Part shown: in pieces, positions 4,482 through 38,871 of the stretch
How the letters are laid out: the number at the start of each line of letters is the position of its first letter
Numbering within the stretch: the stretch's first letter is position 1
Assembly: GCF_019739195.1 (NCBI RefSeq)
Contig: NZ_JAHHDS010000003.1
Coordinates: 310,001-374,000 of the forward strand
Source of the DNA: Microcella sp.
GTDB lineage: Bacteria; Actinomycetota; Actinomycetes; Actinomycetales; Microbacteriaceae
DNA length: 64,000 nt
Direction: 5' to 3'
The notes under the pieces: model-generated
What the model was told of the DNA's origin: nothing
Seen by the model: only the letters and a program-made list of their open reading frames with translations
Databases searched by the model: none
Made by a program: the position numbers and the translations under genes

Positions 4482-4578
4482 ATCCACAATTCAGGAGACG
4501 AGCGCGTGCGGAGGGACGTGGGAGCGCTCGCACGGCGTGTCGCGCGGCTGGGGTTGCAGCAACTCCTGAATTGTGGAG
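4482..4578 (+). repeat. 97-bp inverted-repeat element, copy E1
   Basis: Bounded by aTCCACAATTCAGGAG (first base differs from consensus C) and CTCCTGAATTGTGGAG. The core GGCGTGTCGCG starts 52 nt from the left end and 44 nt from the right end. It lies between convergent genes (YbaK-like stop at 4469, small ORF stop at 4611), where its long hairpin could also act as a bidirectional terminator. I see no target-site duplication. Confidence 0.9.
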
Positions 4579-4610
4579 ATCGGCCGCGTTCGTCGACGCG
4601 GACGGCTTGC

Positions 4611-4730
4611 CTACTCGGGGGCCGCAGAGTTCGCCGGATCGGCGGGCATCAGGCAGGCGTCGCCCTCGCACGCATCGGCAGCGGGGTCGCCGAGCATCGC
4701 GAAGGGCTTCGGCGCAGCATCCGTCGTCAT
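4611..4730 (-). CDS. Small cysteine-containing protein (39 aa) coupled to the DsbA-like gene
   Basis: Open frame of 39 codons starting MTTDAAPKPFAMLGDP and containing CEGDACLMP, two cysteines five residues apart. Its ATG overlaps the stop codon of the DsbA-like gene in the form ATGA, the arrangement of translationally coupled genes. No signal peptide or membrane segment is visible. From memory, similar short acidic ORFs with a Cys pair occur after FrnE-like genes in other actinobacteria, but I cannot verify this here. A role as redox partner, substrate or zinc-binding peptide of the DsbA-like protein is inference. Confidence 0.55.
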   Translation of the reverse strand: MTTDAAPKPFAMLGDPAADACEGDACLMPADPANSAAPE

Positions 4731-5386
4731 GACGCGTCGGCCGTCTCGCGTTCGGCGGCCGCCTGCCGCAGCGCGGCCAGGAACGTCGCGCTATCTTGCG
4801 CTCCCGAGATGCCGTACTTCTCGTCGATGACGAAGAACGGCACGCCCTGGATGCCGTACGCGACTGCTTGCGCCATGTCAACCTTCACGTCGGGCAAGTA
4901 GGTGTGCTCGGCAAGGGCTGTGGCCGCGGCGCTCTGGTCGAGACCGACCTCGGCCGCGAGCTCGACGAGGTCGTCAGCACGGCCGATGTGGCGGCCATCG
5001 GTGAAGTACGCGCGCAGCAGGCGCTCTTTGAGCTCGATCTGCAAGCCGTATGCCTTCGCGAAGTGCAGCAGTTCGTGGGCGAGCACGGTGTTGGTCTGGT
5101 GAATACGGTCGTAGTGATACTCGAGGCCCACCGACTCGGCGATGCCGCTGACGCGATCGACCATCTGCTGCGCTTGGTCGGGGCTGATGCCTTTTCGCTG
5201 GCTCAAATAGTCGACGGGCGAGCCCTCGAAGTCGACCGGGGTGTCGGGCGCGAGCTCGAAGCTGCGGTAGGTCACCTGAACGTCGCCCTCGAACTGCTCG
5301 ACCGCGGCCTCGAACTTGCGCTTGCCGATGTAGCACCAGGGGCACTGCACGTCGGACCAGATTTGCACGCCGATCGGATTGCTCAT
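4727..5386 (-). CDS. DsbA family oxidoreductase (FrnE-like)
   Basis: Thioredoxin-fold protein of 219 aa in the DsbA/FrnE group. The redox motif CPWC is at residues ~16-19, and the cis-proline loop is in GVPFFVI near the C-terminus. There is no signal peptide, so it is probably cytoplasmic, like other FrnE proteins. These act as disulfide isomerases/oxidoreductases, in some species linked to oxidative-stress tolerance. The gene ends in ATGA, overlapping the small Cys-pair ORF. It lies 27 nt downstream of the DUF559 gene on the same strand. Confidence 0.92.
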   Translation of the reverse strand: MSNPIGVQIWSDVQCPWCYIGKRKFEAAVEQFEGDVQVTYRSFELAPDTPVDFEGSPVDYLSQRKGISPDQAQQMVDRVSGIAESVGLEYHYDRIHQTNTVLAHELLHFAKAYGLQIELKERLLRAYFTDGRHIGRADDLVELAAEVGLDQSAAATALAEHTYLPDVKVDMAQAVAYGIQGVPFFVIDEKYGISGAQDSATFLAALRQAAAERETADAS

Positions 5387-5413
5387 GCTGAGCCCAACGT
5401 CGCGCTGGGCCGG

Positions 5414-6418
5414 TTATTCCCTCTGTTTCCCTCGCGCAGTCCGTCGGCGTCTCCACAATTCAGGAGCCGCGCGCGGTCGCAGGCCCGGGGGCGCGCTCTC
5501 ACGGCGTGTCGCGGGGCGTCTGACCTGCGCGACTCCTGAATTGTGGAGATCGACGAGGATGCCGCGCTCGCGCAGCGCGCGCACCGCAGCATCCTGCACC
5601 TCGGGCCAGTGGCCGAAGACGCGCCGAGCGCTCGGCCGCACCGCGTGTAGCCCGACCCGGGTGATGGCCAAGTCGCGCGCGCGATCTTCTTCGAACGAGT
5701 CGCGATGGAACTCGTCGCCGTCGACTTCGACAGCCACCGCACCCTCGAGCACGAGGTCGATTCGCTCGAGGCCGTCGGCGAACGCGACCTGAGTGCTGAC
5801 CTGCACGCCCGCGGCTCGCAGGCGCGTGCGCGCCAGACTTTCGGGCAACGAGTCGCAGTCGTCGGTGCTCGCGTCGACCAGCCAGCGGCGCGGCCCGAGC
5901 CGCTCGCGCAGCGCGGCGAGCTCGATGCGGTCAAGCCGGCCTGTGCGACGCACCCAGTCGAGTACCGCGATGGCTTGTTCGGCGGTCGCGGTGCGGCAGA
6001 CCAGCTCGACGGCCTCGGAAAGTTCGACCATGCCTGTCGACGAGCCCCGATCGTGCGCGAGGCTCACCCAGTGCACGACGACGTTGTCGTCTCGAGCATC
6101 CGCCCGGCGAAGATCGCGTCGCCACTGGTTGCGCAGGCGCGCAGCGTTGGTCGGCACGGCGACATGCAGCGGATGCCGGTCGAGCACCCAGCCGCCGAGC
6201 GCGGCGACCGCGCTGATGCCGGTGAGCCTGCCGCCGACGCGCATGGCCCGAAAACGTGGATCTCGCTCGGGCCACGTCGAGTACCAACCCCGTCGCGGCC
6301 GGTTGAGCGCGCCGGCCTTGAGCGCCCGGCGCAGATCGTGGTCGGTGGCGCCGAGCTCATGCAACCGGCGCCGGTCGAGGGCGCCGCCGTGACGGGCGAC
6401 GAGGTGTACAGCATCCAT
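5414..6418 (-). CDS. AbiEi-like N-terminal domain / DUF559 protein with repeat-derived C-terminus
   Basis: Protein of 334 aa. Residues ~1-60 resemble the AbiEi winged-helix (HGGALDRRRLHELGATDHDL, RRGWY). The C-terminal half has the DUF559/Vsr-type nuclease-like core, with IDLVLEGAVAVEVDGDEFH carrying the D...ExD-type residues. Such proteins are common orphans in actinobacteria; DNA binding or nuclease activity is inferred. The native fold seems to end near ERGILVD. The remaining ~45 residues (LHNSG ... PELWRRRRTARGKQRE) come from repeat copy E2 and its flank, a clear C-terminal extension. No partner toxin gene is adjacent. Confidence 0.75.
   Translation of the reverse strand: MDAVHLVARHGGALDRRRLHELGATDHDLRRALKAGALNRPRRGWYSTWPERDPRFRAMRVGGRLTGISAVAALGGWVLDRHPLHVAVPTNAARLRNQWRRDLRRADARDDNVVVHWVSLAHDRGSSTGMVELSEAVELVCRTATAEQAIAVLDWVRRTGRLDRIELAALRERLGPRRWLVDASTDDCDSLPESLARTRLRAAGVQVSTQVAFADGLERIDLVLEGAVAVEVDGDEFHRDSFEEDRARDLAITRVGLHAVRPSARRVFGHWPEVQDAAVRALRERGILVDLHNSGVAQVRRPATRRESAPPGLRPRAAPELWRRRRTARGKQRE
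5451..5548 (+). repeat. 98-bp inverted-repeat element, copy E2 (within a coding region)
   Basis: Perfect 16-bp termini CTCCACAATTCAGGAG / CTCCTGAATTGTGGAG, with core GGCGTGTCGCG about 52 nt from the left end. The whole element is read through on the minus strand as the C-terminal tail of the DUF559 protein, adding LHNSG at one end and PELWR at the other. Confidence 0.92.
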
Positions 6419-6524
6419 CGCCGCAGGGTGGCGCAGTGCCGGGCCGCCCGAGCGTCGGCGTCACCGAGTCGTGAGTGGCAGCTCGACAGGTTCTCCTGTG
6501 AGGGACGCCCCGGCCTCGGCCGGC

Positions 6525-6621
6525 CTCCACAATTCAGGAGCGGGTCACGTCTGTGAGGCGCGACACGCCGACACAGGGTCGTGGATGCCCTCCCGCGCGC
6601 CGCGACTCCTGAATTGTGGAG
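6525..6621 (-). repeat. 97-bp inverted-repeat element, copy E3
   Basis: Perfect termini at 6525-6540 and 6606-6621. The core GGCGTGTCGCG reads on the minus strand and starts at 6569, 52 nt from the 6621 end. It lies between the glyS stop (6658) and the DUF559 start (6418), so it is transcribed downstream of glyS and could terminate that transcript. The rest of the 6419-6657 gap holds nothing I recognise apart from a GGCC-rich palindrome at ~6510-6525. Confidence 0.92.
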
Positions 6622-6657
6622 ACCGGGCTCGGGTCGACGGGGTTGTCGGCGCGCAGG

Positions 6658-8043
6658 TTACGAGCCGAGCAGCTCGCCGGCCAGGTACGCCTCGAGTTTG
6701 TCGAGCGGGATGCGTTCTTGCGCCATCGTGTCGCGCTCGCGCACCGTGACGGCCTGGTCGTCAAGGGTGTCGAAGTCGACCGTGATGCAGAACGGCGTGC
6801 CAATCTCGTCTTGGCGGCGGTATCGCCGGCCGATCGCGCCGGCGTCGTCGAAGTCGACGTTCCAGTGCTGGCGCAGCCGGTCGGCGAGCTCGCGTGCCAC
6901 GGGCGAGAGCTGCTCGTTGCGCGAGAGCGGCAGCACGGCGGCCTTGATCGGCGCGAGGCGGCGGTCGAGCCGCAGCACCGTGCGCTTGTCGACGCCGCCC
7001 TTGGTGTTGGGTGCTTCATCTTCGTAGTACGCGTCGACGAGGAAGGCCATGAGCGAACGGGTGAGGCCCGCGGCCGGCTCGATGACGTACGGCACCCAGC
7101 GCTCTTCTTTGCTCTGGTCGAAGTACGACAGGTCGACGCCCGAGTGCTCGCTGTGCGTCTTCAGGTCGAAGTCGGTGCGGTTGGCGACGCCCTCGAGCTC
7201 GCCGAACTCCGAACCGGTGAAACCGAAGCGGTACTCGATGTCGACGGTGCGCTTCGAGTAGTGCGAGAGCTTCTCTTGCGCGTGCTCGTAGAGGCGCAGG
7301 TTCTCGGGGTCTATGCCGAGATCGATGTACCACTGCAGCCGCGTGTCGATCCAGTATTGGTGCCACTCTTCATCAGTGCCGGGCTCAACGAAGAACTCCA
7401 TCTCCATCTGCTCGAACTCTCGAGTGCGGAAGATGAAATTGCCGGGCGTGATCTCGTTGCGGAACGACTTTCCGATCTGGCCGATGCCGAACGGAGGCTT
7501 CATGCGGGCCGCGTTGAGCACGTTCACGAAGTTGACGAAGATGCCCTGGGCGGTCTCGGGGCGTAGGTAGTGCATCCCGGATTCCTCCTCGACCGGGCCG
7601 AGGAACGTCTTAAGCAGCCCCGAGAACTCTTTCGGCTCGGTCCACTGCCCGCGCGTGCCGCAGTTGACACACGCGATGTCGGCGAGACCGTTCTCGGGAG
7701 CGCGGCCCTTTTTCTCTTCGTACTCTTCTTCGAGGTGGTCGGCGCGGTAGCGCTTGTGGCAGCTCAGGCACTCGACGAGCGGGTCGCTGAAGACGTCGAC
7801 GTGGCCGGAGGCCTCCCACACGCGCTTGGGCAGGATGACGCTGGAGTCGAGCCCGACGACATCGTCGCGGCGGGTCACCATCGAGCGCCACCACTGGCGC
7901 TTAATGTTCTCCTTCAGTTCGACGCCCAGGGGCCCGTAGTCCCAGGCCGAACGCGAACCACCGTAGATCTCACCGGCCTGAAAGACGAAGCCGCGCCGCT
8001 TGGCGAGCGCGATGACGGTGTCGAGCCGGGATGGGGCAGCCAC
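6658..8043 (-). CDS. glyS: Glycine--tRNA ligase (homodimeric, class II)
   Basis: Charges tRNAGly with glycine. The 461-aa product is the alpha2-type enzyme of actinobacteria and eukaryotes, not the two-subunit GlyQ/GlyS. Visible are the N-terminal [22 protein letters not shown], two zinc-ligand pairs ([16 protein letters not shown]), the class II motif region [25 protein letters not shown], and the C-terminal anticodon-binding domain. Length is typical. A perfect 9-bp inverted repeat lies upstream. Confidence 0.96.
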
Positions 8044-8074
8044 GAGGGAGTCTCCTGTTCTGGCCGAGCTGGAT

Positions 8075-8122
8075 GCCCGGCGCCGAGTAGCACGTAAGCG
8101 TGAAGTCTACTGAGCGCCGGGC
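8075..8122 (-). other. Perfect 9-bp inverted repeat between lipoprotein gene and glyS
   Basis: Arms GCCCGGCGC and GCGCCGGGC are separated by 30 nt that contain TAGACT, a possible -10 box for glyS. It could be a terminator for the lipoprotein gene or a structure in the glyS leader. There is no U-tract, so the role is uncertain. Confidence 0.4.
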
Positions 8123-8141
8123 GTGCCTCCGCGCGGGCGAC

Positions 8142-8780
8142 TCAGCCGCAGTTGGCCGCCAGCACGAACTCGCCCTCGTGAGGGTTCTCGGCACCGGGGA
8201 GCCCTGCGAGAGTGCCCCGGGCGCTGATGTCGGATCCGACGATGCGAATCATCGGATCCGGTCCGTCACCGCGGAACCACTCCGTGCTGCCATCCTCATC
8301 TCCGCCGTTCTGGGCATTAGAGATGTCGTTCAGCTCGCGACCGCCGGTTCCGCCGATGTGCGTCACCTGAACGAGTTCTTCCTCATAGTTGAATCCCAGG
8401 TCGGGGCCGATGCCGCGACGCAGCGAGAGCTCGGTGCGCCCGTATGCGGTGTCACCCTGCACGATGAACTGCACAGTCTCGGCGCCCTCGCGCTCGTCGG
8501 CGGTGCACTCGACGCCGGCGAAGTCGAGTCGCTCGCCCGCGATCTCAATGTAGGCGGTGCCCGCCGCAGCGGGCTCGACTGCATCGTGCAGGCTGTCGGC
8601 CTCAAGACTGTCGAGGCCACCGCCCGTGGCAGACTCGCCGTTCGCGTTCGTCTCGGTGGACTCGGTCTCTTCAATCGCCTGGCCGGGCTCGTCGGTCGAC
8701 GCTGACTCGGGACTGCACCCGACCAGCAGCAGCGCTGTTGCTAGGGTCGTTGACACGGTGATGAGGCTCTTGAACGCCAC
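8142..8780 (-). CDS. Putative lipoprotein of unknown function
   Basis: Protein of 212 aa with a lipoprotein signal peptide: FKSLITVSTTLATALLLVGC, where LVGC is the lipobox and Cys ~20 the lipidation site. An acidic, Ser/Thr/Glu-rich linker follows, then a ~130-residue domain with two further cysteines (VECTADERE and the final AANCG), which could form a disulfide. The GTG start at 8780 is supported by GGAGAGTGAGA just upstream. The layout (linker plus beta-rich domain) resembles small secreted actinobacterial lipoproteins, but I do not recognise the family. Confidence 0.75.
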   Translation of the reverse strand: MAFKSLITVSTTLATALLLVGCSPESASTDEPGQAIEETESTETNANGESATGGGLDSLEADSLHDAVEPAAAGTAYIEIAGERLDFAGVECTADEREGAETVQFIVQGDTAYGRTELSLRRGIGPDLGFNYEEELVQVTHIGGTGGRELNDISNAQNGGDEDGSTEWFRGDGPDPMIRIVGSDISARGTLAGLPGAENPHEGEFVLAANCG

Positions 8781-8892
8781 GATCTCACTCTCCAGAAGGG
8801 TTCTCGTCGTCGGACCAAGGGGTTCCCGGGCCCGGGCAATGAGGTCCCTACCTTTCCGAGAATTGCTCGGAGTCGCAACTTGGAAGGAGTGC

Positions 8893-9687
8893 TCACCCAG
8901 AGGGAGCATCCACCGCCCCGCCGAAGCGGCGGTCGCGACGCGCGAAGTCTTCGATCGCATCCCACAAATGCCGACGCCGGAAGTCGGGCCAGAGCGTGTT
9001 GAGAAAGGCCATCTCGGCATACGCGCTCTGCCAGAGCATGAAGTTGCTCGTGCGCTGCTCGCCGCTCGACCGCACGAACAAGTCCACGTCGGGTTGGTCG
9101 GGTTCGTAGAGGTGGCGCGCGATCGAGCGCTCGGTGATGCGCGCGGGGTCGACCCGACCGGCCTTGACGTCGGCGGCGAGGGCGCGCACGGCATCCACGA
9201 GTTCGACGCGGCCGCCGTAGTTGACGCACATCGTCAGCGTGAGTCCCGTGTTGCCGGCCGTGCGGGCCTGCGCCTCTTCGAGCTCGCTGATGACGCTGCG
9301 CCACAGTCGCGGACGACGACCGGCCCACCGGATGCGCACATTCCAGGCGTCGAGCTGGTCGCGTCGGCGGCGCAGCACCTCGCGGTTGAAGCCCATGAGA
9401 AAGCGCACCTCATCAGGACTTCTACTCCAGTTCTCGGTGCTGAACGCGTAGACGCTCAAGTGCTTCACGCCGATCTGCACAGCACCGGCAACGACATCGA
9501 GCAGGCTCGCCTCACCCGCGCGGTGACCCTCGACGCGCGTGAGGCCCTGACGGTTGGCCCAGCGACCGTTGCCGTCCATGACGATGGCGACGTGCTGCGG
9601 CACGACTTCTCTCCGCAATTCAGGAGGATGCTCGCCCGTCCAGTCGAGCGGACGCAGCGGCTCGGCGTGTCGCGGCTCTCTACTCAC
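8893..9687 (-). CDS. uppS: Isoprenyl transferase (undecaprenyl/polyprenyl diphosphate synthase)
   Basis: Condenses isopentenyl diphosphate onto an allylic diphosphate to make the cell-wall carrier lipid. The cis-prenyltransferase motifs are complete: MDGNGRWA with the catalytic Asp, [12 protein letters not shown], and [21 protein letters not shown] start it at GTG 9687, giving 264 aa. Repeat copy E4 supplies AGGAG 5 nt upstream, the start codon and roughly the first 25 codons ([18 protein letters not shown]). The start overlaps the recO stop (GTGA), so translation is coupled to recO. Confidence 0.94.
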
Positions 9688-9708
9688 GCGGACTCCTGAA
9701 TTGTGGAG
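9611..9708 (+). repeat. 98-bp inverted-repeat element, copy E4, spanning the recO/uppS junction
   Basis: Left terminus CTCCGCAATTCAGGAG (one mismatch), perfect right terminus CTCCTGAATTGTGGAG at 9693-9708, core GGCGTGTCGCG starting 53 nt from the left end. On the minus strand it encodes the last residues of RecO (STIQESA plus stop), a consensus AGGAG ribosome-binding site, and the start and first ~25 codons of UppS. Confidence 0.9.
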
Positions 9709-10493
9709 GCCGCGGCGGCCGCGCGCGCCGTCTCGCGTTCGGCGGTTCTCACGTCGAGGCGCGCATCGACGCGGTCGACGTGCGGCAGTGAGCGCAGGCC
9801 GCGTTCGAGGTGGAACTGCGTGTAGGCCGCCACGATGCCGTTGGCTTGAGCGCGCGCATGTTCTGAACTCGCCTCGGCGACAGCCCAATCGCCCGAGAGC
9901 AGGGCGCCGAGCAACTCGCGCGTCTCGTCCGAGACGCGCGGCGCGCCGGGCGGGGCGACCTCATCAGACACGACACCGCCGAGCTGCACCACGAAGGCGC
10001 TGTGGGGGCCGGGCGCGCCGGTCACGGCGCAGTCGCCGAAGGTCGGCGCCCATCCCGCAATCGAGAGCGACCGCAGCAGATAACTGTCGAGTGTCAGACC
10101 AGGCGGATGATCGCCCCGAGCCAGCGACCGCAACGCGCCGACCAGCAGGAGGTACTGCTGTACCCCTCCGCCGTCGTCGCCCGTGACCCGGTCGGCGGTC
10201 TCGACCATGACGTTCGCGGCGGTGTAGCTGCCGTAGTCAGACGTGATCTCGGCACCGTACGAGCCGAGCGTCTCGGCCTGCTGGATGATGTCGAGGCTGC
10301 GGCCCGCATAGAGCTGCACGTCGGCGACCATGAACGGCTCGAGGCGCGCACCGAACTTGCTGCCCGTGCGCCGCACCCCCTTGGCCACGGCACGAATCTT
10401 GCCGTGGTTGCGGCTGAGCATCGTGACGATACGGTCGGCTTCACCCAGCTTGTGGGTGCGCAGCACGACGATCTCGTCACGGTAGGTCGGCAC
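9684..10493 (-). CDS. recO: DNA repair protein RecO
   Basis: Recombination mediator that works with RecR to load RecA at gaps. The 269-aa product starts [20 protein letters not shown], the usual OB-fold start, followed by the helical domain. The zinc-finger region is degenerate: [13 protein letters not shown] and GGVVSDEV keep one cysteine where many actinobacterial RecO proteins have CxxC pairs. The C-terminal STIQESA is encoded by repeat copy E4, and the TGA stop overlaps the uppS GTG. GATACT 6 nt before the GTG is a possible leaderless -10. Confidence 0.93.
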
Positions 10494-10566
10494 GGCTCCA
10501 GTATCCCGCGCGCGGGTGCGAACGGGCCCGACGGCGCGGCGGGCATCCGCGATTCGGGGTGGCCTT

Positions 10567-10674
10567 CTCCACAATTCAGGAGAATCGGCGGATGCTCAGC
10601 CGAGCCCGCGCAGAGACGCCGCTGATTCCGCGAGCTCGCGCGCGGCGGCATCGAGAAACTCCTGAATTGTGGAG
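10567..10674 (-). repeat. 108-bp diverged inverted-repeat element, copy E5 (in the 3' end of nadS)
   Basis: Both 16-bp termini are perfect, but the element is about 11 bp longer than the others and its core has decayed to GGCGTCTC. Minus-strand sequence near the 10567 end (AGCATCCG, then ATTCTCCTGAATTG) resembles the matching part of the copy in nadB. Its left half encodes the last ~25 residues of NadS, and the nadS stop lies inside the element. Confidence 0.75.
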
Positions 10675-11750: not shown

Positions 11751-11759
11751 GGATGCTCG

Positions 11760-12695: not shown

Positions 12696-14338
12696 GCGGG
12701 CACCTCCGCGCGAGCATCCGATCTCCACAATTCAGGAGATTCGGATGCTGGACGCACGACGACACGCCGCACGCGCTGCTCGGGGTCGGTCTCGGGGAAG
12801 TCGTCGCGCCAGTGCGCGCCCCGCGATTCGGTGCGGGCCAGCGCGGCCGCGGCGGTCAGGCGCGCGAGCGGCAGCAGCGAGCGGGCTTCATCGTCGGCAG
12901 GGCGAGCATCCGCCAGTTCTCGGGCAAAATCAGCCATTTCGTCGCCTGTTCGTTCGAGACCGAGCGCCTGCCAGGCGCGGTCGCGGATGCGGTCAGCACT
13001 CCACGCGACCGTTCCGTCGGCGAGGGCGTCGGCCGCGATCTCGCGCACGAGCGGCACGGGTGTGTCGAGCTGAGCGCCAGACGCCGACTCCTGAATTGTG
13101 GAGGTCGACACGGCGCTCGCGTCGCGCAGCGCGGGCAGGGGCAGCGCGGGCACCGAGCCCGCGGCATCGACGGCATCGCCCGCGCGCCATCCCACGACGA
13201 CCGCCTCGAGCAGCGAGTTCGAGGCGAGGCGGTTGGCGCCGTGCACTCCCGTCGACCCAGTTTCGCCCACAGCGAACAAGCCCGGAATCGTCGTGCGGCC
13301 ATCCATGTCGGTGAGCGCCCCGCCCATCGCGTAGTGCGCCGCGGGCGTCACGGGCACGGGCGAGGTCGACCAGTCGACGCCGGTCGCGCGCACGAGGGCG
13401 TCGATAGTCGGAAAGCGCTCAGCCAAGACAGAGGCCCCGAGCATCGTCGCGTCGAGCAACACGGGCTGACCGTCCTGAAGCCTCATCTGGCGGGCGATCG
13501 CGCGCGCCACGATGTCGCGAGGGGCGAGCTCGGCCCGCGGGTCGATCTCGAGCATGAAGCGACGTCCGTCGGCGTCGAGCAGCGTCGCGCCCTCACCGCG
13601 CACGGCCTCGGAGACGAGTCCTCCCCCGGCGAGCACGGTGGGGTGAAACTGCACGAACTCGAGGTCGGCGACGACAGCGCCGGCCGCGTAGGCCAGCAGC
13701 ACGCCGTCGCCCGTCGAGACGGGCGGGTTGGTCGTGTGACGGTAGAGCCGTCCGTTGCCCCCGGTCGCGATGATCACAGCATCGGCATCGACGTGCTCGA
13801 CGCCCGCGGGGCTCTCGACAACCGCACCCACGATCGCGCCGTCGCGCACGTTGAGCGAGGTCGCGCGGGCGAATTCACGGGCCCGGATGCGCCCCTCACG
13901 CACCGCGGCAGCCAGAGCCGTTTCGATCACTCGGCCGGTGGCGTCGCCCCCCGCGTGCAGTATGCGCGCGACCGAGTGCGCGGCCTCGAGCCCGCGGGCC
14001 CAGTCGCTCACGTCGTCGAACGGTGCGACGGCGCCCGGCGCGGGGTCGAAGGCCACCCCGAGCCCGACGAGGTCGTGCACCCGGCCGGGCCCCTCGGTGC
14101 AGAGGATGTCGACGGCGACAGGATCACTCAGGCCCGCGCCCGCGAGCAGCGTGTCGCGGGCGTGCAGTTCGGCCGAGTCGTCGGGAAAGACGGCAGCGGC
14201 GATGCCGCCCTGCGCCCACGAGGTCGAACCCGCGGTGAGCACGTCTTTCGTGACGATCGTGACATCGTGCCGGCGCGCGGCGCGCAGGGCGGCGACGAGC
14301 CCGGCCATGCCGCTGCCGATGACGAGGATGTGCGCCAT
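12692..14338 (-). CDS. nadB: L-aspartate oxidase
   Basis: FAD enzyme oxidising aspartate to iminoaspartate, the substrate for NadA. The 548-aa product has VIGSGMAGLVAALRAA for FAD binding, STSWAQGGIAAA, the active-site region TPAAHYAMGGALTD and GLFAVGETGSTGVHGANRLASNS. Two half copies of the repeat lie in the C-terminal region: one gives STSTIQESASG at residue ~412, the other gives SPELWRSD near the end. They bracket the C-terminal helical domain, which still looks intact (DEARSLLPLARLTAAAALARTESRGAHWR is present in separate pieces). The stop overlaps nadC. Confidence 0.94.
   Translation of the reverse strand: MAHILVIGSGMAGLVAALRAARRHDVTIVTKDVLTAGSTSWAQGGIAAAVFPDDSAELHARDTLLAGAGLSDPVAVDILCTEGPGRVHDLVGLGVAFDPAPGAVAPFDDVSDWARGLEAAHSVARILHAGGDATGRVIETALAAAVREGRIRAREFARATSLNVRDGAIVGAVVESPAGVEHVDADAVIIATGGNGRLYRHTTNPPVSTGDGVLLAYAAGAVVADLEFVQFHPTVLAGGGLVSEAVRGEGATLLDADGRRFMLEIDPRAELAPRDIVARAIARQMRLQDGQPVLLDATMLGASVLAERFPTIDALVRATGVDWSTSPVPVTPAAHYAMGGALTDMDGRTTIPGLFAVGETGSTGVHGANRLASNSLLEAVVVGWRAGDAVDAAGSVPALPLPALRDASAVSTSTIQESASGAQLDTPVPLVREIAADALADGTVAWSADRIRDRAWQALGLERTGDEMADFARELADARPADDEARSLLPLARLTAAAALARTESRGAHWRDDFPETDPEQRVRRVVVRPASESPELWRSDARAEVPA
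12723..12780 (-). repeat. Half copy E6a of the inverted-repeat element (3' end of nadB)
   Basis: Terminus CTCCACAATTCAGGAG at 12723-12738; core GGCGTGTCG on the minus strand starts at 12768, 45 nt away, the normal short-arm spacing. The other terminus expected near 12820 is missing. The minus strand is read as NadB codons (RVRRVVVRPASESPELWRS). Confidence 0.75.
13057..13103 (+). repeat. Half copy E6b of the inverted-repeat element (inside nadB)
   Basis: Terminus CTCCTGAATTGTGGAG at 13088-13103; core GGTGTGTCG, one mismatch, starts at 13059, 44 nt from the end. The distal terminus is absent. It is oriented opposite to E6a, so two short-arm halves face each other across about 380 bp of nadB. 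In frame it adds STIQES to NadB. Confidence 0.65.
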
Positions 14339-14341
14339 GAG

Positions 14342-27812: not shown

Positions 27813-27814
27813 GC

Positions 27815-29264: not shown

Positions 29265-29270
29265 GCCCTC

Positions 29271-29276: not shown

Positions 29277-29287
29277 GAGCGGCTTGC

Positions 29288-30043: not shown

Positions 30044-30050
30044 CTCGCGA

Positions 30051-32174: not shown

Positions 32175-32193
32175 CGTCGACTCCCTCCGTCGC

Positions 32194-32220
32194 TTGGCAC
32201 TCAGTCTTCCGGACTGCTAA
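32194..32220 (-). promoter_or_regulatory. CIRCE operator upstream of hrcA-dnaJ
   Basis: TTAGCAGTC-N9-GAGTGCCAA on the minus strand, against the consensus TTAGCACTC-N9-GAGTGCTAA: two mismatches and exact 9-nt spacing. TAGAAT just upstream on the minus strand is a plausible -10, so HrcA binding would block initiation. Confidence 0.9.
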
Positions 32221-32391
32221 TTCTACCCCGCCACACTGTGACCCGGTCCTTGCCTGGCGGTGTCGCGCGCGCTAGGTTTGCCGCGTGCTCTCGCCGATGA
32301 GGGTGGTCTCTGCTCTGAGTCGGCGCGTCATGCACACGTGCTCCACCCCGGGAAACCCAGTCCGCACAAGGATCATCGAAAGGCAGCACCT

Positions 32392-32787
32392 ATGACTGAC
32401 CAGACCCCTCCCCCCGCCAGCCCGGCTCCGGCTGCTCCTCTGAGCGAGGCCGAAGACCGCCAGTGGGCGTCGTTCGCCCACCTCGGCGGAATCCTGGGCA
32501 TTCTGCCCGCCCTGATCATCTTCCTGGTGTTCAAGGACCGCGGCGCGTTCACGCGCGGGGAGTCGAAAGAGGCCCTGAACTTCCAGATCACCGTCATCAT
32601 CGCGTACATCGCGGTCAACGTGCTCAGCTGGATCATCGGCGCCGTCACCTTCGGCCTCGGTGCGCTGCTCGGCCTGCTGACCCCGCTCGTCTGGATCGGC
32701 GCGGTGATCTTCTCGATTCTCGGCTTCGTGAAGTCGAAGGACGGCAACGCGTACCGCTACCCGGTCTCGATCCGACTCGTCAAGTAG
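32392..32787 (+). CDS. DUF4870 domain membrane protein (first copy)
   Basis: Protein of 131 aa: a Pro/Ala-rich N-terminus of ~20 residues, then EDRQWASFAHLGGILGILPA, ALIIFLVFKDRGAFTRGESKEALNFQ in the family pattern, and three hydrophobic helices. DUF4870 proteins are small membrane proteins of unknown function. GAAAGGCAG precedes the ATG. A strong hairpin follows, then a paralogue with related layout. Confidence 0.88.
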   Translation: MTDQTPPPASPAPAAPLSEAEDRQWASFAHLGGILGILPALIIFLVFKDRGAFTRGESKEALNFQITVIIAYIAVNVLSWIIGAVTFGLGALLGLLTPLVWIGAVIFSILGFVKSKDGNAYRYPVSIRLVK

Positions 32788-32808
32788 TCGTTTCACCAGG
32801 AGCACATT

Positions 32809-32841
32809 CGAGGGGCTCGGCCGACACGGCCGGGCCCCTCG
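32809..32841 (+). terminator. Hairpin terminator after the first DUF4870 gene
   Basis: Arms CGAGGGGCTCGGCCG and CGGCCGGGCCCCTCG pair over 15 bp with one mismatch and a 3-nt loop, followed by GGTGTTTAA. It ends 16 nt before the next start codon. Confidence 0.7.
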
Positions 32842-32857
32842 GGTGTTTAATGGCCGC

Positions 32858-33229
32858 ATGACCGATCAACCTCCTACCAACCCGTACGCCGCCACTCCGC
32901 AGCCCATGAGCCCTGCCGACGAAAAGCTGTGGGCGACGCTCGTGCACGTGGGCGGCATCTTCTTCGGCTTCATCCCGGCCCTCATCGGGTTCCTCGTGCT
33001 CGGCAACCGGGGGCCCTTCGTACGCGGGCACACCGCCACCGCGCTCAACTTTCAGCTGACGATGATCATCGCGGCCGCGATCGGCGCGATCACCTCGTGG
33101 CTCATCATCGGCATCTTCATCATCATCGCCGTGAGCATCGTCATCATCGTGCTCTCGATCATCGCGGCGATCGCGGCCAATCGCGGCGAGGCCTACCTCT
33201 ACCCGCTGACGATCCCGTTCATCAAGTAG
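32858..33229 (+). CDS. DUF4870 domain membrane protein (second copy)
   Basis: Protein of 123 aa, paralogue of the preceding gene: SPADEKLWATLVHVGGIFFG, then FVRGHTATALNFQLT and three hydrophobic helices ending NRGEAYLYPLTIPFIK. The start is ATG 32858 (MTDQPPTNPYAATP), matching MTDQTPPP of the first copy. A GTG at 32843 would add five residues inside the terminator hairpin edge. It is convergent with hemW, with 3 nt between stops. Confidence 0.87.
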   Translation: MTDQPPTNPYAATPQPMSPADEKLWATLVHVGGIFFGFIPALIGFLVLGNRGPFVRGHTATALNFQLTMIIAAAIGAITSWLIIGIFIIIAVSIVIIVLSIIAAIAANRGEAYLYPLTIPFIK

Positions 33230-33232
33230 CCG

Positions 33233-34459
33233 TCAGTCGGGCAGCAGACGGCGCACGACGCCGTCGGCGAGCAGGCGCCCGCGCAGCGTGAGCACGATCG
33301 TGCCGCGCAGCGCGGGCCCCGGCTCGACGAGCTCATCCGCGATGAGGCCGGCGACTGCTCGGCGGCCGAGCGGGGTGAGAGCATCCGTCGACAGGCCCTC
33401 GCGCAGGCGCACCTCGAGCAGCACGCGTTCGGTGCGGCGCGACTCGTCGTCGAGGGTCTCGCGGCCCGCGGCTGGGCTCAGCCCGTGCGCGAGTCGGTCG
33501 GCATAGGCGGCAGGATGCTTGACGTTCCACCAGCGCACGCCGCCGATGTGGCTGTGCGCGCCGGGGCCGACGCCCCACCAGTCCTGCCCGGTCCAGTAGG
33601 CGCGGTTGTGGCGCGAGCGATGGTCGGGGGTGCGTGACCAGTTGCTCACTTCGTACCAGTCGTAGCCCGCGTCTCTCAGCCGCGCGTCGAGCACCTCGTA
33701 GAACAGCGCATGCAGGTCGTCGTCGACAGGCGGCACCTGACCGTGCGCAATCTGGCGGGCGAGCTTCGTGCCGGGCTCGACGATGAGCGCGTAGGCACTC
33801 ACGTGGTCGGGCTCGGCCGCGAGCGCCGCATCGAGGCTGTGCTGCCAGTCGGCCTCGGTCTCACCCGGCGTGCCGTAGATGAGGTCGAGGCTCACGGCGA
33901 GCCCGGCGGCCTTTGCGGCCGCGACGACGCGCGGCACGTTTTCGGGGTCGTGCGTGCGCTCGAGCACCGCGAGCACGTGCGGCACGACCGACTGCATGCC
34001 GACGCTCACGCGCGTGAAGCCCGCGGCGGCGAGCCGCTCGAGGCCCGCCTCGTCGATCGAGTCGGGGTTCGCCTCGGTCGTGATCTCGGCCCCCTCGGCG
34101 ATGCCCATGTGCTTGCGCACCGCGTCGAGCATGCGCGCGAGATCGCTCGTCGGCAGCAGCGTCGGAGTCCCGCCTCCGAAGAAGACCGTGCGGGCCGGGC
34201 GCGGCGACAGGCCGATCTCGTGCAGCACGCGCGCGGCGAGCTCGACCTCGGCGATCGCCTGGTCGGCGAAGTCGCTCTGCCTGACGCCGCGCACCTCGTC
34301 GGCCGTGTAGGTGTTGAAGTCGCAGTAGCCGCAGCGCACGCGGCAGAACGGCACGTGCAGGTACACCCCGAGGTCGCGCTGCTCGGCGCCCGCGAGCACG
34401 CTCGGCGGCAGCATCCCGTCGTCGGGCGCCGGGTCGGCGAGGGGTAGGGCGCTGGGCAC
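33233..34459 (-). CDS. hemW: Radical SAM protein HemW
   Basis: Coproporphyrinogen-III-oxidase-like radical SAM protein, now regarded as a heme chaperone. The 408-aa product has VYLHVPFCRVRCGYCDFNTY with the CxxxCxxC cluster motif, FFGGGTPTLL, GMQSVVPHVLAVLERTH and a C-terminal HemN_C domain. The CxxxCxxC is not followed by the extra Cys of true HemN. GGGAGG precedes the GTG start. It lies with hrcA-dnaJ as in other actinobacteria, but lepA, its usual neighbour, is 15 kb away. Confidence 0.94.
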   Translation of the reverse strand: MPSALPLADPAPDDGMLPPSVLAGAEQRDLGVYLHVPFCRVRCGYCDFNTYTADEVRGVRQSDFADQAIAEVELAARVLHEIGLSPRPARTVFFGGGTPTLLPTSDLARMLDAVRKHMGIAEGAEITTEANPDSIDEAGLERLAAAGFTRVSVGMQSVVPHVLAVLERTHDPENVPRVVAAAKAAGLAVSLDLIYGTPGETEADWQHSLDAALAAEPDHVSAYALIVEPGTKLARQIAHGQVPPVDDDLHALFYEVLDARLRDAGYDWYEVSNWSRTPDHRSRHNRAYWTGQDWWGVGPGAHSHIGGVRWWNVKHPAAYADRLAHGLSPAAGRETLDDESRRTERVLLEVRLREGLSTDALTPLGRRAVAGLIADELVEPGPALRGTIVLTLRGRLLADGVVRRLLPD

Positions 34460-34483
34460 GCCCCCATCCTCCCAGCCTCGCCC

Positions 34484-34579
34484 TCCACAATTCAGGAGTC
34501 GGGCTCGCCGACGCGGGCTGCGGATGCTCTGCCGGGCGTGTCGCGGCGTGGGAGCATCCCGAACTCCTGAATTGTGGAG
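34484..34579 (+). repeat. 96-bp inverted-repeat element, copy E7
   Basis: Perfect termini at 34484-34499 and 34564-34579; core GGCGTGTCGCG starts 51 nt from the left end. It lies between divergent genes (hemW start 34459, monooxygenase start ~34630), so here it is in a promoter region and cannot be a transcript-end hairpin. It also contains GGATGCTC and GAGCATCC. Confidence 0.92.
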
Positions 34580-34629
34580 ATCGCCCCAGGCGGCGTCGAG
34601 CTCGGCACCGAAGACTCAGAGTGGAGACG

Positions 34630-35748
34630 ATGAACCAGAAGGCAGAGCTACCCGACCGCATCGAGGTGCTCGTCGTGGGCGGCGGGCAAGCCGGCCTCGG
34701 CATGGGGTACCGGCTGCGCGAGGCCGGGGTGCCCTTCGTGATCGTCGATGATCGCGCTCGCACGGGCGACGTGTGGCGTGCTCGTTGGCGCAGCCTCGTG
34801 CTGTTCACTCCGCGCCGGTTTGCGGCGCTGCCGGGGCTGCCGCTGCCGTCGTCGACGGGCTATTACCCGACGCGCGAGCAGATGGCCGACTACCTCGAGC
34901 ACTACGCCGCCGAGTTCGCGCTGCCGGTCGTGCGCGAGACTCGGGTCATCGCCATCACCCGCGCGGGCGACGAATTCGTCGCCGAGACGACGCGCGGCAC
35001 CGTGCGGGCTCGCGCCGTCGTCATCGCGACGGGTCCGTTCCAGTACCCGCGCATTCCCCGCGTCGGCGCCAAGCTCGAGCTGAGCGTGGCGCAGCTGCAC
35101 TCCAGCGCGTACACCTGCGCCGACGACCTGCCGCACGGCCGCATCGCCGTCGTCGGCGGCGGCAACTCCGCCGCGCAGCTCGCCGTCGAGCTCGCCGACA
35201 GCGACCGCGCACGCGACGTCACGATGATCGCGCCGCAGCAGCCCTGGTTCATTCCCGAGCGAATCCTCGGCCTTACGGTCTACTGGCCCCTGAAACTGCT
35301 GGGCATCTTGAGCTCGCCGGCCGACAGCCGCATCAGCGAGTACATTCATTCGCGCGGTGACGGAATCCTGGGCACCGAGGCGAAGCGCGCCGTGCGATCG
35401 GGTCGACTGCGTCTGCTCACGAGCCGCGTGGTGGATGCTCACGAGCGCTCGCTCGTGCTCGCCGACGGCACCCGACACGAAGTCGATGCGGTGCTCTGGG
35501 CGACGGGCTTTCGCACGCACTACCCGTTCATGCAGGTCGAGGGTGCGCTCACGGAGCACGGCGGGCCGCTGCACGAGGGCGGCGTCTCACCCGTCGACGG
35601 CCTCTACTGGCTCGGGCTCCCGTGGCAGCGTCGACTCGATTCGTCGATCATCCATGGCATCGCCGCCGACTCGGCCGACCTTCTCGCGCCGCTCGAGCGG
35701 CACCTCGGTCTGTTGCGCAGCGCTGCCTCTGACAGCATGGAACCGTGA
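34630..35748 (+). CDS. Flavin-containing monooxygenase-like NAD(P)/FAD oxidoreductase
   Basis: Protein of ~372 aa. FAD motif VLVVGGGQAGLGMGYRL at the N-terminus, YPTREQMADYLEHYA, ATGPFQYPRIP (the conserved ATG of this family), NADPH motif IAVVGGGNSAAQLAVELA and VLWATGFRTHYP. This is the CzcO/YpdA-like group; the substrate is unknown. GTGGAG lies 3 nt before the ATG; GTG 34621 is an alternative. The next gene's GTG overlaps its stop. Confidence 0.85.
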   Translation: MNQKAELPDRIEVLVVGGGQAGLGMGYRLREAGVPFVIVDDRARTGDVWRARWRSLVLFTPRRFAALPGLPLPSSTGYYPTREQMADYLEHYAAEFALPVVRETRVIAITRAGDEFVAETTRGTVRARAVVIATGPFQYPRIPRVGAKLELSVAQLHSSAYTCADDLPHGRIAVVGGGNSAAQLAVELADSDRARDVTMIAPQQPWFIPERILGLTVYWPLKLLGILSSPADSRISEYIHSRGDGILGTEAKRAVRSGRLRLLTSRVVDAHERSLVLADGTRHEVDAVLWATGFRTHYPFMQVEGALTEHGGPLHEGGVSPVDGLYWLGLPWQRRLDSSIIHGIAADSADLLAPLERHLGLLRSAASDSMEP

Positions 35749-36413
35749 CCACCACCATCCTCTGGGACGTCGACGGAACCCTGCTGCTCAACAGCTACAC
35801 GGGCGGCGGCGAGCTCTACCACACGGCGATCGAGCGCACCGTGGGCCGCGAGCTGCACCCGCCGCTGCCGCGCACGCACGGCAAGCCCGACGGGCTCATC
35901 CTCAGCGAGATCCTCGCCCACTTCGGCTTCGGCGACGAGTGGCACGAGCGCGCGCGGGCGACGCTCGACGAGCTCTCGATCGAGCGGCACCGCAGCGGCG
36001 ACGCCCGCGAGACGGCACCGGGCGTGACGGATGCTCTGCGCGCCGTCGCCGCGCGCGGCTGGCACAACGCGCTGCTGACGGGCAACTCGCTCGTGCGCGC
36101 TCGCGTGAAGCTCGAGGGCGCCGGGCTCGGGCCCGAGTGGTTCGACTGGGAGCGTTCGTTTTTCGGCTCGACGGCCCGCGACCGCAGCGAGATCACCCGC
36201 GCGGCGCGCGAGGCGCTGCCCGGCGAGACCCTCGTGATCATCGGCGACACCCCGCGCGACGACGAGGCCGCGGCCGCCGCGGGCATGCCCTTCATCGGCG
36301 TCGCGACGGGCGTCTTTACCGTCGACGACCTGCGTGAGACGGGCGCGGTGCTCGTCGTCGCCGATCTCGCCCAGTCGCTCGATGAGGTGCTCGCAGCGAT
36401 CGAGCCGCTCTAG
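35745..36413 (+). CDS. HAD-superfamily hydrolase
   Basis: Protein of 222 aa with the HAD motifs: ILWDVDGTLL (nucleophile Asp), LLTGNS, and VIIGDTPRDDEAAAAAGM. The alpha-helical cap between motifs 1 and 2 is like the phosphoglycolate-phosphatase group. The GTG start overlaps the monooxygenase stop (GTGA). The substrate cannot be told from sequence. It is convergent with the next gene, overlapping by 4 bp. Confidence 0.9.
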   Translation: MTTTILWDVDGTLLLNSYTGGGELYHTAIERTVGRELHPPLPRTHGKPDGLILSEILAHFGFGDEWHERARATLDELSIERHRSGDARETAPGVTDALRAVAARGWHNALLTGNSLVRARVKLEGAGLGPEWFDWERSFFGSTARDRSEITRAAREALPGETLVIIGDTPRDDEAAAAAGMPFIGVATGVFTVDDLRETGAVLVVADLAQSLDEVLAAIEPL

Positions 36414-36790
36414 CTGACGAGCGCGACCCCTTGCACGAACCAGATCTGGTTCATGCGGAACACCATGACGGCGACGGCGAGGCTCGCGACACCCATGACC
36501 ACGGTCGCCCAGCGCGAGCGGTCGACGAGCGCCCAGGCGATCGCGGCAACCTGCAGCACGAGGGCGACGACGAGGTAGATCCACCACTCGACGAGGTCGC
36601 CCGTCGGCTCGTTGCCGACGAACGGCGCGACGAGGCCGATGACGATCTGCACGATGAGCACGAGCGCCACGGCGGCGGTGGGCAGCACGCTGTAGTCGTC
36701 GGGTTTGCGGCCGATGCCGCCGAGCACGAGGGCGGCGACGCCGGCGACGACGCTGACGATGATGGCGATCGTGGTGAACCACTCGATCAC
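36410..36790 (-). CDS. Small four-helix membrane protein downstream of truB
   Basis: Protein of 126 aa with four hydrophobic helices (TIAIIVSVVAGVAALVLGGI, LPTAAVALVLIVQIVIGLVA, WWIYLVVALVLQVAAIAWAL, VVMGVASLAVAVMVFRM). The function is unknown. The GTG start overlaps the truB stop by 4 bp, so it is translationally coupled to truB. Confidence 0.8.
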   Translation of the reverse strand: MIEWFTTIAIIVSVVAGVAALVLGGIGRKPDDYSVLPTAAVALVLIVQIVIGLVAPFVGNEPTGDLVEWWIYLVVALVLQVAAIAWALVDRSRWATVVMGVASLAVAVMVFRMNQIWFVQGVALVS

Positions 36791-37716
36791 GGTGCTGCCT
36801 CCTGGGCGCTGTCGTTCGGGAACCCGACCAGCGTACGACCGCGGCCCTCACGCACGCTGATGAGGGCGACGAGGCGGTCGGGATGCGCGCCACCCGCACC
36901 CCGCTCGATCGCGGCGACCGGCTCGGCGTCGGGCTGCGCGGGCAGGGCGAGCAGCTTGCCGTGCCCGAGGTCGCGGGCCCGCGCGGCATCGACCTCGAGC
37001 ACCGGGAACAGCTGCGCGGCGACCTCGGCAGGGCTCGCGAGCAGGCTGGCACCCTGCTCGGCCAGCTCGTCGAGACTCACGGCGTCAGCCACGTCGAACG
37101 GCCCGACGCGCGTGCGCCGCAGCGCCGTCAGGTGCCCGCCGATACCGAGTGCCGTGCCGAGGTCGCGCGCGAGGGCGCGGATGTAGGTGCCCGAGCTGCA
37201 GTCGATGCGAGCATCCACCTCGATCGCGGTCGCGGTGCGTCGCACGGCCAGCGCCTCGAACGCGCTGATCGTGACGCGGCGCGACGCGAGCTCGACCTCT
37301 TCGCCCGCGCGCACGCGGTCGTAGGCGCGCTTGCCGTCGACCTTGATCGCGCTCACTGAACTGGGTCGCTGGTCGATCTCACCCGTGAGGGCGCGGATGC
37401 CCGCCACGAGCGCGTCGTCGGTCACTGCCGCGATCGCCGCGGGCTCGGCCGTGCTGACAACCTCACCTTCAGCGTCGTCGCTCGTCGTCGCGGCGCCCAG
37501 CCGCATGGTCGTCTCATACGTCTTGTCGAGGCCGACCAGGTAGGTGAGCAGGCGCGTGGCCGGGCCGACTCCGAGTGTGAGCAGGCCCGTCGCCATCGGG
37601 TCGAGGGTGCCGGCGTGGCCGACCTTGCGGGTGTTGAGCGCGCGGCGCGCACGCGCGACGACGTCGTGGCTCGTGAGACCCTGCGGCTTGTCGACGAGCA
37701 GCAGTCCGGTGGTCAT
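36787..37716 (-). CDS. truB: tRNA pseudouridine(55) synthase TruB
   Basis: Makes pseudouridine 55 in the T-loop of tRNA. The 309-aa product has GLLLVDKPQGLTSHDVV, the catalytic Asp in KVGHAGTLDPMATGLL, YETTMRLG, RPSSVSAIKVDGKRAYDR and CSSGTYIRALARDLG. The ATG at 37716 is preceded by GGAGG; TAGCGT lies 7 nt upstream too. ribF, often next to truB in actinobacteria, is 9 kb away. Confidence 0.95.
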   Translation of the reverse strand: MTTGLLLVDKPQGLTSHDVVARARRALNTRKVGHAGTLDPMATGLLTLGVGPATRLLTYLVGLDKTYETTMRLGAATTSDDAEGEVVSTAEPAAIAAVTDDALVAGIRALTGEIDQRPSSVSAIKVDGKRAYDRVRAGEEVELASRRVTISAFEALAVRRTATAIEVDARIDCSSGTYIRALARDLGTALGIGGHLTALRRTRVGPFDVADAVSLDELAEQGASLLASPAEVAAQLFPVLEVDAARARDLGHGKLLALPAQPDAEPVAAIERGAGGAHPDRLVALISVREGRGRTLVGFPNDSAQEAAP

Positions 37717-37767
37717 GGCCTCCACGCTAGCGGGCGCGGGCGACGGCGGTCGTACGGCTGCCGCGCC

Positions 37768-37773
37768 TAGGCT
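37768..37773 (+). promoter_or_regulatory. Putative -10 box (TAGGCT) for the ketopantoate reductase gene
   Basis: TAGGCT, 7 nt, then ATG at 37781. The intervening GGCGAGC gives no clear Shine-Dalgarno; a leaderless transcript is likely. Confidence 0.5.
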
Positions 37774-37780
37774 GGCGAGC

Positions 37781-38773
37781 ATGCGCATGGCGGTCATCGG
37801 AGCGGGCGCGGTCGGCGGCCTCGTGGCCGCACTGGCCGCGCGCGCGGGGCACGAGGTGCTCGTGACCGCGCGCGGCGAGCATGCCGAAGCGATCGCCTCC
37901 GCCGGGCTGCACGTCGACGGCGGATGGGGCGAGTGGGTGGCCGCGGTCGAGCTCGTCGAGAGCATCCCGAACCGCGCCCTCGACCTGCTCGTGCTCGCCA
38001 CGAAGGCGCACGACTCCGCGACCGCCCTCGAGGGGTGGGGCCCTCATGACGGCACGCCCGTTCTCGTGCTGCAGAACGGCCTGGGCGGCGAAGATGCCGT
38101 GCGGGATGCCCTGCCGCACTCCCCCGTCGCGATCGGCCTCGCGCTCTTCGCCGTCAGCCTCACGGCCCCGGGGCACGTCACCGTCACGGGCCCCAACGGC
38201 CTCACATTCGGCGGTGACGCGGCCGCCGTGGCGGTCGCCGAGCCCCTGCTGCGTGAGGTGCTGCCCGCTGAGATCGTGCTCGCCGAGAACATCCGCGGCG
38301 CCCAGTGGACCAAGCTGCTCATCAATCAGGTCAACGCCTTGCCCGCCATCACGGGCCTCAGTGTGCAGCAGACCATCGCCCATCCGGGTCTGCGCGATGT
38401 GCTCGCGCGCGCGATGGTCGAGACGGTGCGGGTCGGTACCGCGGCCGGCGCCCGCTGGGGCCGCATCGGGGCGGTGGATGCCGATGCCGTCGCCGCCGTG
38501 CGCGCGGGCGGCACTCCCGCTGCCGAGCATCTCGCTCAGCACCTCGCCGCCGGAATGGGCGACGTGCCCAACCCGGCCTCGATGCTGCAGAGCATTCGCC
38601 GCGGCCGCACGACCGAAGTCGAGGCGATCAACGGCGCCGTCGTCGCCCTCGGCACGCAGCACGGCGTCCGCACCCGGGTGAACGCCGCGCTCGTCGCCCT
38701 CGTGCACGCCGTCGAGCGCTCAGGCGAGCACCTCGCGCCCGCCGAGCTCGCGGCGAGCATCCCTCCCCTCTGA
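37781..38773 (+). CDS. panE: 2-dehydropantoate 2-reductase family protein
   Basis: NADPH-dependent reductase of 330 aa of the ApbA/PanE family: AVIGAGAVGGLVAALAARAG for the cofactor, VLVLQNGLGGEDAV, the catalytic region WTKLLINQVNALPAITG with the conserved Lys and Asn, and SMLQSIRRGRTTEVEAINGA at the C-terminus. Converts ketopantoate to pantoate in CoA synthesis, although distant homologues act on other 2-keto acids. The stop is 1 nt before repeat copy E8. Confidence 0.88.
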   Translation: MRMAVIGAGAVGGLVAALAARAGHEVLVTARGEHAEAIASAGLHVDGGWGEWVAAVELVESIPNRALDLLVLATKAHDSATALEGWGPHDGTPVLVLQNGLGGEDAVRDALPHSPVAIGLALFAVSLTAPGHVTVTGPNGLTFGGDAAAVAVAEPLLREVLPAEIVLAENIRGAQWTKLLINQVNALPAITGLSVQQTIAHPGLRDVLARAMVETVRVGTAAGARWGRIGAVDADAVAAVRAGGTPAAEHLAQHLAAGMGDVPNPASMLQSIRRGRTTEVEAINGAVVALGTQHGVRTRVNAALVALVHAVERSGEHLAPAELAASIPPL

Positions 38774-38774
38774 T

Positions 38775-38871
38775 CTCCACAATTCAGGAGTCAGCGCAGC
38801 GCCAGTTGCCCGACACGCCGCAAGAGCGCTCTACTCGCCCACCTCGTGTCGCGTTCTCCTGAATTGTGGAG
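38775..38871 (-). repeat. 97-bp inverted-repeat element, copy E8
   Basis: Perfect termini at 38775-38790 and 38856-38871; core GGCGTGTCG on the minus strand starts at 38819, 52 nt from the 38871 end. It begins directly after the panE stop and lies between convergent genes. The flanks GAT and GAC are near-symmetrical, but I see no direct duplication. Confidence 0.92.

Follow-up and report, generated by a model that had tools for sequence, protein, structure and literature searches.

Paired inverted repeats around a predicted AbiEi/Vsr-like nuclease gene of Microcella are probably its cognate binding sites

Along a 64,000-nucleotide stretch of the Microcella genome G000 (G000:C3:310001-374000, the window in what follows), 16-bp repeats in inverted orientation bound segments of mostly about 97 bp. 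A first-pass annotation of the same DNA had likened these elements to REP sequences or miniature inverted-repeat transposable elements (MITEs). We propose that the repeats are probably cognate paired binding sites, inverted 16-bp arms in helical phase, of a predicted nuclease encoded among them at 5420-6418 on the minus strand. Sequence comparisons show an association of gene and sites, covariation of the sites with the N-terminus of the protein, constraint on the arms, and joint absence of gene and sites from one relative, G216.

Allowing up to three mismatches, we found the arm CTCCACAATTCAGGAG 16 times in the window (shuffled sequence: mean 0.14, maximum 2; 0/100 shuffles reached 16). The 16 arms form seven inverted pairs of 97-108 bp and one of 381 bp within nadB (Table 1); the view that they represent one family of ~97-bp elements and not chance palindromes was correct. 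The limits given for the pairs hold as well, apart from a start at 34484 that is one base off (34483). The diverged 108-bp copy at 10567 is an inverted pair without the interior 9-mer GGCGTGTCG. Two supposed half copies in nadB do exist as arms but are not halves; together they make up the single 381-bp pair, whose arms keep an identical 365-bp offset in G204, G205, G206 and G218.

Table 1. Repeat elements and the nuclease gene of the window. The strand of an element is the direction of GGCGTGTCG.
Feature	Position	Strand	Description
E1	4482..4578	+	97-bp pair, intergenic; left arm with 1 mismatch
Nuclease gene	5420..6418	-	AbiEi-type winged helix and Vsr-like (MTES_1575/DUF559) nuclease, proposed binder of the arms; from profile matches and conserved residues
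E2	5451..5548	+	98-bp pair covering the 3' end of the nuclease gene
E3	6525..6621	-	97-bp pair, upstream of the nuclease gene
E4	9611..9708	+	98-bp pair; left arm (1 mismatch) within uppS coding DNA
E5	10567..10674	.	108-bp pair without GGCGTGTCG; right arm within the 3' part of a nifS-like cysteine desulfurase gene
E6	12723..13103	.	Arms 12723-12738 and 13088-13103, outer length 381 bp, both within nadB
E7	34483..34579	+	97-bp pair
E8	38775..38871	-	97-bp pair

Further copies lie elsewhere in the genome: G000 holds 29 arms at up to one mismatch (0 for the reversed control) and 32 at two. The exact 16-mer occurs in 2/199 genomes of the family, both Microcella. A degenerate pattern, searched at up to two mismatches, gave 14-52 sites in 14/26 Microcella genomes and 0-5 in 12/26. 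Several of these 12 site-poor genomes have a spelling other than that of the window (spelling A), namely B (GTC[AG]ACAA[CT]TCAGGAC; G218, G201, G074, G208, G202, G213 and G199) or C (GTCGACAACTCAGGAG; G137 and G203). Most of the variation among arms falls at positions 4, 5, 9 and 16. A wider pattern, STYNRCAAYTCAGGAS, matched 16/85 genera sampled, mostly in low copy, and its reversed control also matched in a few genomes. The 9-mer GGCGTGTCG stands at the fixed place described for it in all six full copies and also adjoins the 12723 arm of the nadB pair. By itself it is weak (10 matches in the window vs 3.2 expected), and we counted it as signal because its position in the elements is fixed, not for its frequency. 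The words that recur in the interiors of 29 elements of spelling B or C do not include it, and it is therefore a trait of the spelling-A clade, not of the whole family.

The nuclease gene sits between E3, upstream of it, and E2, over its 3' end. The first-pass annotation had suggested looking for a DNA-processing enzyme gene flanked by the 16-mer, and such a gene is present here; it encodes an AbiEi/Vsr-like nuclease (AbiEi plus MTES_1575) and not a Y1/HUH transposase of the RAYT (REP-associated tyrosine transposase) kind, a RAYT elsewhere in the genome not having been searched for. The protein matches the profiles AbiEi_4 and MTES_1575, both below the curated cut-offs. Across 20 relatives, Pfam found AbiEi_4 in 17/20, MTES_1575 in 20/20 and DUF559 in 17/20; PADLOC assigned its AbiEi model to 19/20 members and its homing-endonuclease model to 4/20. 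Residues D221, E231, H238 and D245 are invariant in all 20, and the nuclease profile reaches the solved structures 3hrl and 3r3p (E value 0.0016 for 3r3p, named a mobile intron protein). Structure prediction from three sequences gave a mean predicted local distance difference test score of 43.7, with only residues 1-50 at ~75-89. Element E2 itself encodes the nuclease near its C-terminus (window 5417-5548; HNSGVAQ...APELWR), an extension present in the G189 orthologue and not in the other paralogues of our 20-protein alignment A1.

The gene lies between two pairs in 13/13 Microcella genomes whose flanks were read (G000, G189, G201, G203, G204, G205, G206, G207, G218, G219, G220, G074 and G137), the downstream pair being 1-2 kb away from it in G137 and G203. 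G200, G202 and G208 each have a homologue no more than 10 kb from nadB. In G216, the aligned DNA jumps from before E2 to after E3: no homologue was found there, and arms and gene are both absent. This genome has no B or C site genome-wide at one mismatch, and near nadB one lone two-mismatch match. G215 gave no match near nadB to PF18741, and a search for B and C sites confined to that neighbourhood returned 0 matches.

The sites cluster around this gene. In eight Microcella genomes, 219/249 arms lie within 100 kb of the nuclease gene, where ~19 would be expected if they were uniform; the figures are 99/99 for G218, G201, G203 and G137, and 120/150 for the spelling-A genomes G205, G206, G204 and G000. 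Distances were taken from site lists with a mismatch limit of 1 for B and C and of 2 for A (G204 from the degenerate pattern), and the four contigs of G000 were treated as one circle of total length. The main clusters lie to one side of dif, ~70-350 kb from it; dif was placed by a sequence pattern, with one match of 1-2 mismatches per genome. A single pair, possibly one shared site, was seen 16-23 kb from dif and far from the main cluster in four spelling-A genomes (G000:C3:54234-54330; G204 at 311 kb; G205 at 2.33 Mb; G206 at 1.38 Mb).

The same loci were compared across the genus. G218 has B-type arms at the E2, E3, E4, E5 and nadB loci; B-type arms also occur at nifS and nadB in G213, and at nadB in G201, G208 and G074. 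In uppS and nifS the arms fall on coding sequence that aligns to siteless relatives without gaps. The uppS motif PPELRRE is encoded through GAG CTT CGG CGA/CGT in siteless G216 and G215, and through GAA TTG CGG AGA in six carriers, with the residues unchanged; in G218, which uses spelling B, it reads PPELST, with RR replaced by ST. In nifS, spelling A mostly gives STIQE and spelling B STTQD, and siteless relatives have TTTAE or STTAE. The second nadB arm site is not gapless, because siteless relatives show a gap there. At E1, G206 has a pair and G207 none, with a boundary that is not clean; this locus (window 4470-4650) is unstable, G216 being ~0.55 kb longer there. Neither a clean empty site nor a target duplication was seen in the relatives compared or the flanks inspected. 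Relatives that carry pairs at the same loci, the lack of a clean empty site among them and the gapless uppS and nifS alignments speak against the simple mobile, MITE-like family first suggested, this being the outcome that the first-pass annotation itself had named as making such a family unlikely, and the elements do not look like insertions.

What is kept at these loci is the arms. Twelve orthologous pairs of G206 and G207, selected as present in G206, were identical at 378/384 arm positions (98.4%), 730/800 interior positions (91.3%) and 1286/1440 positions of the 60-bp flanks (89.3%). In a wider and less clean comparison arms were taken at up to three mismatches, hence their conservation there is partly due to the choice of matches. 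Together, these alignments indicate that the interiors diverge and the arms are retained. In the spelling-A clade some whole elements were copied locally: two interiors in G000, 385 bp apart, are 92% alike with unlike flanks, and G209 has a similar couple. The copied interiors therefore leave room for limited mobility like that of REPINs, the REP doublets mobilised by RAYTs. The G000 couple belongs to an array (G000:C3:377479-378029; L114:11480-12030) in which three same-direction arms every 34 bp are followed by a pair, beside an open reading frame that we take, by eye, to be helicase-like; similar arrays are found in G205 (L115) and G204 (L116).

The partnership is not confined to this gene. 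Several Microcella paralogues matching PF18741 are flanked by pairs of other spellings, and relatives of alignment A1 occur in at least 70/90 family genomes and at least 65/84 genera. We scored 89 loci from 49 genomes and 46 Microbacteriaceae genera, taken roughly by rank from ~150 matches listed, with some passed over. Same-spelling pairs on both sides were found at 42/89 loci (score >=9), compared with 0/89 for outer-flank controls and 35/882 for permuted pairings; at a score >=7 the numbers were 43/89, 1/89 and 52/882. Among those 42 units (score >=9), the end of the upstream pair is a median of 102 bp from the gene start, and the downstream pair begins at a median of 10.5 bp from the stop codon (range -237 to 292). 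Sites are more alike where the proteins are more alike. When the nuclease part is controlled for, the N-terminal 100 residues predict the spelling (partial rho 0.49, 0/2000 permutations); when the N-terminus is controlled for, the nuclease part does not (partial rho 0.01, 891/2000 permutations). These correlations indicate that the spelling follows the predicted DNA-binding N-terminus and not the nuclease. Two further AbiEi-nuclease genes of G000, at G000:C2:87691-88560 and G000:C3:1983750-1984601, have a stop inside the matched stretch; the latter, despite its stop, has pairs of its own spelling on both sides. In the genus g67, a nuclease homologue (two tblastn pieces) lies between pairs at L203:521-595 and 1501-1574 with a spelling close to that of Microcella.

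To look for sites beyond the flanking pairs, we scanned stretches of 60-93 kb around nine units, drawn from seven genomes and including two more units of G000, in each case with the unit's own spelling at up to two mismatches; a unit of G076 was left out for want of a confident spelling. The scan returned 27, 9, 16, 6, 27, 8, 4, 22 and 11 arms (reversed control 0-2). Many extra pairs within 40 kb surround four of the nine units (G084, G021, G037 and G048), and one or two surround three more (G082, G068a and G000 at 2.06 Mb). A distant 20-kb stretch in each of the four rich genomes held 0 arms at up to one mismatch and 1 in total at two. The four rich clouds share a TCGGAAAYTCAGGA-like spelling, which also occurs at a second G021 unit and beside another G084 nuclease locus. 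The unit around G068:C1:1658420-1659259 has 11 own-spelling arms within ~0.2 kb of its gene and none further out.

Pair lengths cluster at 86-87, 97-100, 108-110 and 119-120 bp. In 30/42 units the pair upstream of a gene and the one downstream of it match in length to within 2 bp; in the other 12 units the two lengths differ by 6, 10, 10, 10, 11, 11, 12, 12, 19, 19, 22 and 53 bp. In G201 and G218 the arms form symmetric arrays, several plus arms followed by several minus arms, with a same-strand spacing of 44-56 bp.

How might such sites serve the nuclease? According to PMC7319586, AbiEi binds inverted repeats cooperatively and regulates its own expression. We infer that the protein would bind each arm, with joint action over both arms of a pair. 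AbiEi-like autoregulation would then be exerted through the pair that lies ~100 bp before the start codon. The one by the stop codon, together with the pairs surrounding the locus, would trap freshly made nuclease near the place where it is encoded. The stepped pair lengths support cooperative binding and autoregulation only indirectly. The nuclease may thus be kept scarce and tethered until a trigger, perhaps foreign DNA, releases it. Selection would maintain the operator-like pairs around the gene, and sites would decay where the gene is lost. The step of autoregulation and tethering is tentative, and we hold it to be somewhat less probable than its opposite.

Several observations weigh against the proposal that the repeats are sites of the nuclease. 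Binding and cleavage are predicted from sequence, and autoregulation leaves sites tens of kb away unexplained. In the four spelling-A genomes counted, 30/150 arms lie beyond 100 kb, and G199 has B-type arms with no match near nadB to PF18741, a model that also missed the genes of G218 and G074. The two-sided test was failed by 47/89 loci, with a threshold set after the scores had been seen. The covariation test leaves in the shared descent of gene and flanking sites, and the contrast between the two protein halves is its informative part. Two of the nine scanned units have no pair beyond their flanks, and the four rich clouds, given their common spelling, are related and not four independent cases. 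The signal of phasing is modest: the 12 non-zero length differences gave R 0.64, reached by 79/5000 random sets, and for the B and C lengths (28/29 elements, one 131-bp element omitted) all periods between 10.5 and 12 do about as well as each other.

Could the repeats be mobile after all, the 97-bp unit moving in REPIN- or MITE-like fashion via this nuclease or an unseen transposase, with clustering the result of short hops? Spelling-A elements have a common length and central motif, their interiors are slightly more alike than shuffled ones (0.371 vs 0.304 outside the motif; 88/96 spelling-A elements, 97-99 bp), near-identical interiors stand between unlike flanks in G000 and G209, and the anatomy is like that of REPIN-RAYT systems as described in PMC3116915. 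However, siteless uppS and nifS relatives are gapless, the spelling changes at the same loci, no common interior word was found in B and C elements, lengths step by helical turns and no clean empty site was seen, and we regard this explanation as unlikely. Equally improbable to us is a selfish nuclease of the homing type, which would cut siteless DNA near its locus and spread by co-conversion, its pairs marking or protecting its own allele. The match to 3r3p, the PADLOC homing-endonuclease model in 4/20 members and the linkage of sites to the gene would fit, but the genes hold their neighbourhood across the genus rather than moving, no cut site is known, and the plasmid, phage and viral collections searched held no relatives of the protein. 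For the same lack of relatives, an origin in a phage, plasmid or virus was discarded; ten single 16-mer matches in viral contigs were taken as chance, without a computed expectation.

Chromosome-organising sites, either a matS-like terminus macrodomain or a parS-like centromere array, would explain a regional cluster of short conserved sites, some within genes, in the dif-containing half of the chromosome. We nonetheless judge them very unlikely, even with the pair 16-23 kb from dif in four spelling-A genomes, as the main clusters are displaced from dif towards one side and go with the nuclease gene, and other units with other spellings lie elsewhere. A terminus macrodomain had been suggested by dnaA positions and was dropped once dif was placed. 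RNA-level hairpins acting as terminators or processing sites are hardly credible: perfect inverted arms could pair in RNA, yet window 4000-40000 has no Rfam match, the arms lie within genes, between convergent genes and upstream of genes, and the interiors vary. Homogenisation of arms by cruciform conversion was rejected too, because the two arms vary independently of each other at positions 4, 5 and 9; an association at position 16 in B and C (p 1.3e-4) was attributed to pooling the two spellings.

Reading the repeats as sites of the nuclease raises the prospect of an undescribed chromosomal class, on which we are evenly divided. Its AbiEi/Vsr nucleases, often several per genome across Microbacteriaceae, would each have a private spelling of phased pairs on both sides of their own gene and often a cloud of further pairs; selection would keep the sites even in housekeeping genes, the spelling would change with the winged helix, and linked sites would act as tether or antidote. 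We found no description of this arrangement in the open-licence papers searched (MTES_1575, AbiEi/DUF559), and no open-licence paper on a role for AbiEi-MTES_1575-type proteins, present in at least 65/84 Microbacteriaceae genera. If site sets are indeed private and co-evolving, each genome would offer several natural experiments on how proteins recognise DNA, open to reading at the level of single residues and bases. The partnership also raises the testable question of why selection should rewrite uppS, nifS and nadB codons to keep sites for a nearby nuclease. A further caution is that inverted repeats surrounding genes of this kind may be something other than the ends of transposons.

Each known system shares part of this picture. 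The operators of AbiEi, from type IV AbiE toxin-antitoxin systems, have in common with it the AbiEi-type winged helix and inverted repeats upstream of the protein's own gene (at the median distance given above for 42 units), whereas here the winged helix is fused to a nuclease, another pair stands by the stop codon and more pairs lie far away. The 3r3p protein and other Vsr-like homing endonucleases, which we take to belong to the EDxHD family, have a nuclease domain related by profile; the present protein differs in its own winged helix, its one neighbourhood across the genus and the cognate pairs around its gene. In ParB-parS and MatP-matS, one DNA-binding protein has short conserved sites that cluster in a region, some of them in genes. 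Such a cluster is seen here too, with an unrelated protein, phased pairs and many private spellings, and, unlike a matS-like terminus array, it follows the nuclease gene and is not centred on dif. In contrast to MITEs, no target duplication appears in the flanks inspected and siteless uppS and nifS relatives are gapless. The closest analogue, by comparison of architecture, appears to be REPIN-RAYT with an unrelated enzyme: inverted 16-mer doublets stand beside a single-copy, vertically kept enzyme gene, and several spellings are each matched to their own enzyme gene, as found here. The enzyme, in contrast, is an AbiEi plus Vsr-like nuclease and not a Y1/HUH tyrosine transposase; the arms lie largely (219/249) within 100 kb of the gene instead of being spread over the genome; they occupy uppS, nifS and nadB coding DNA instead of extragenic DNA, with no insertion seen at the gapless uppS and nifS loci; and B and C interiors are not conserved, with lengths that step by about one helical turn. 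Judged from sequence, the system is thus REPIN-RAYT-like in anatomy, yet set apart from it by its predicted enzyme and by the distribution of its sites.

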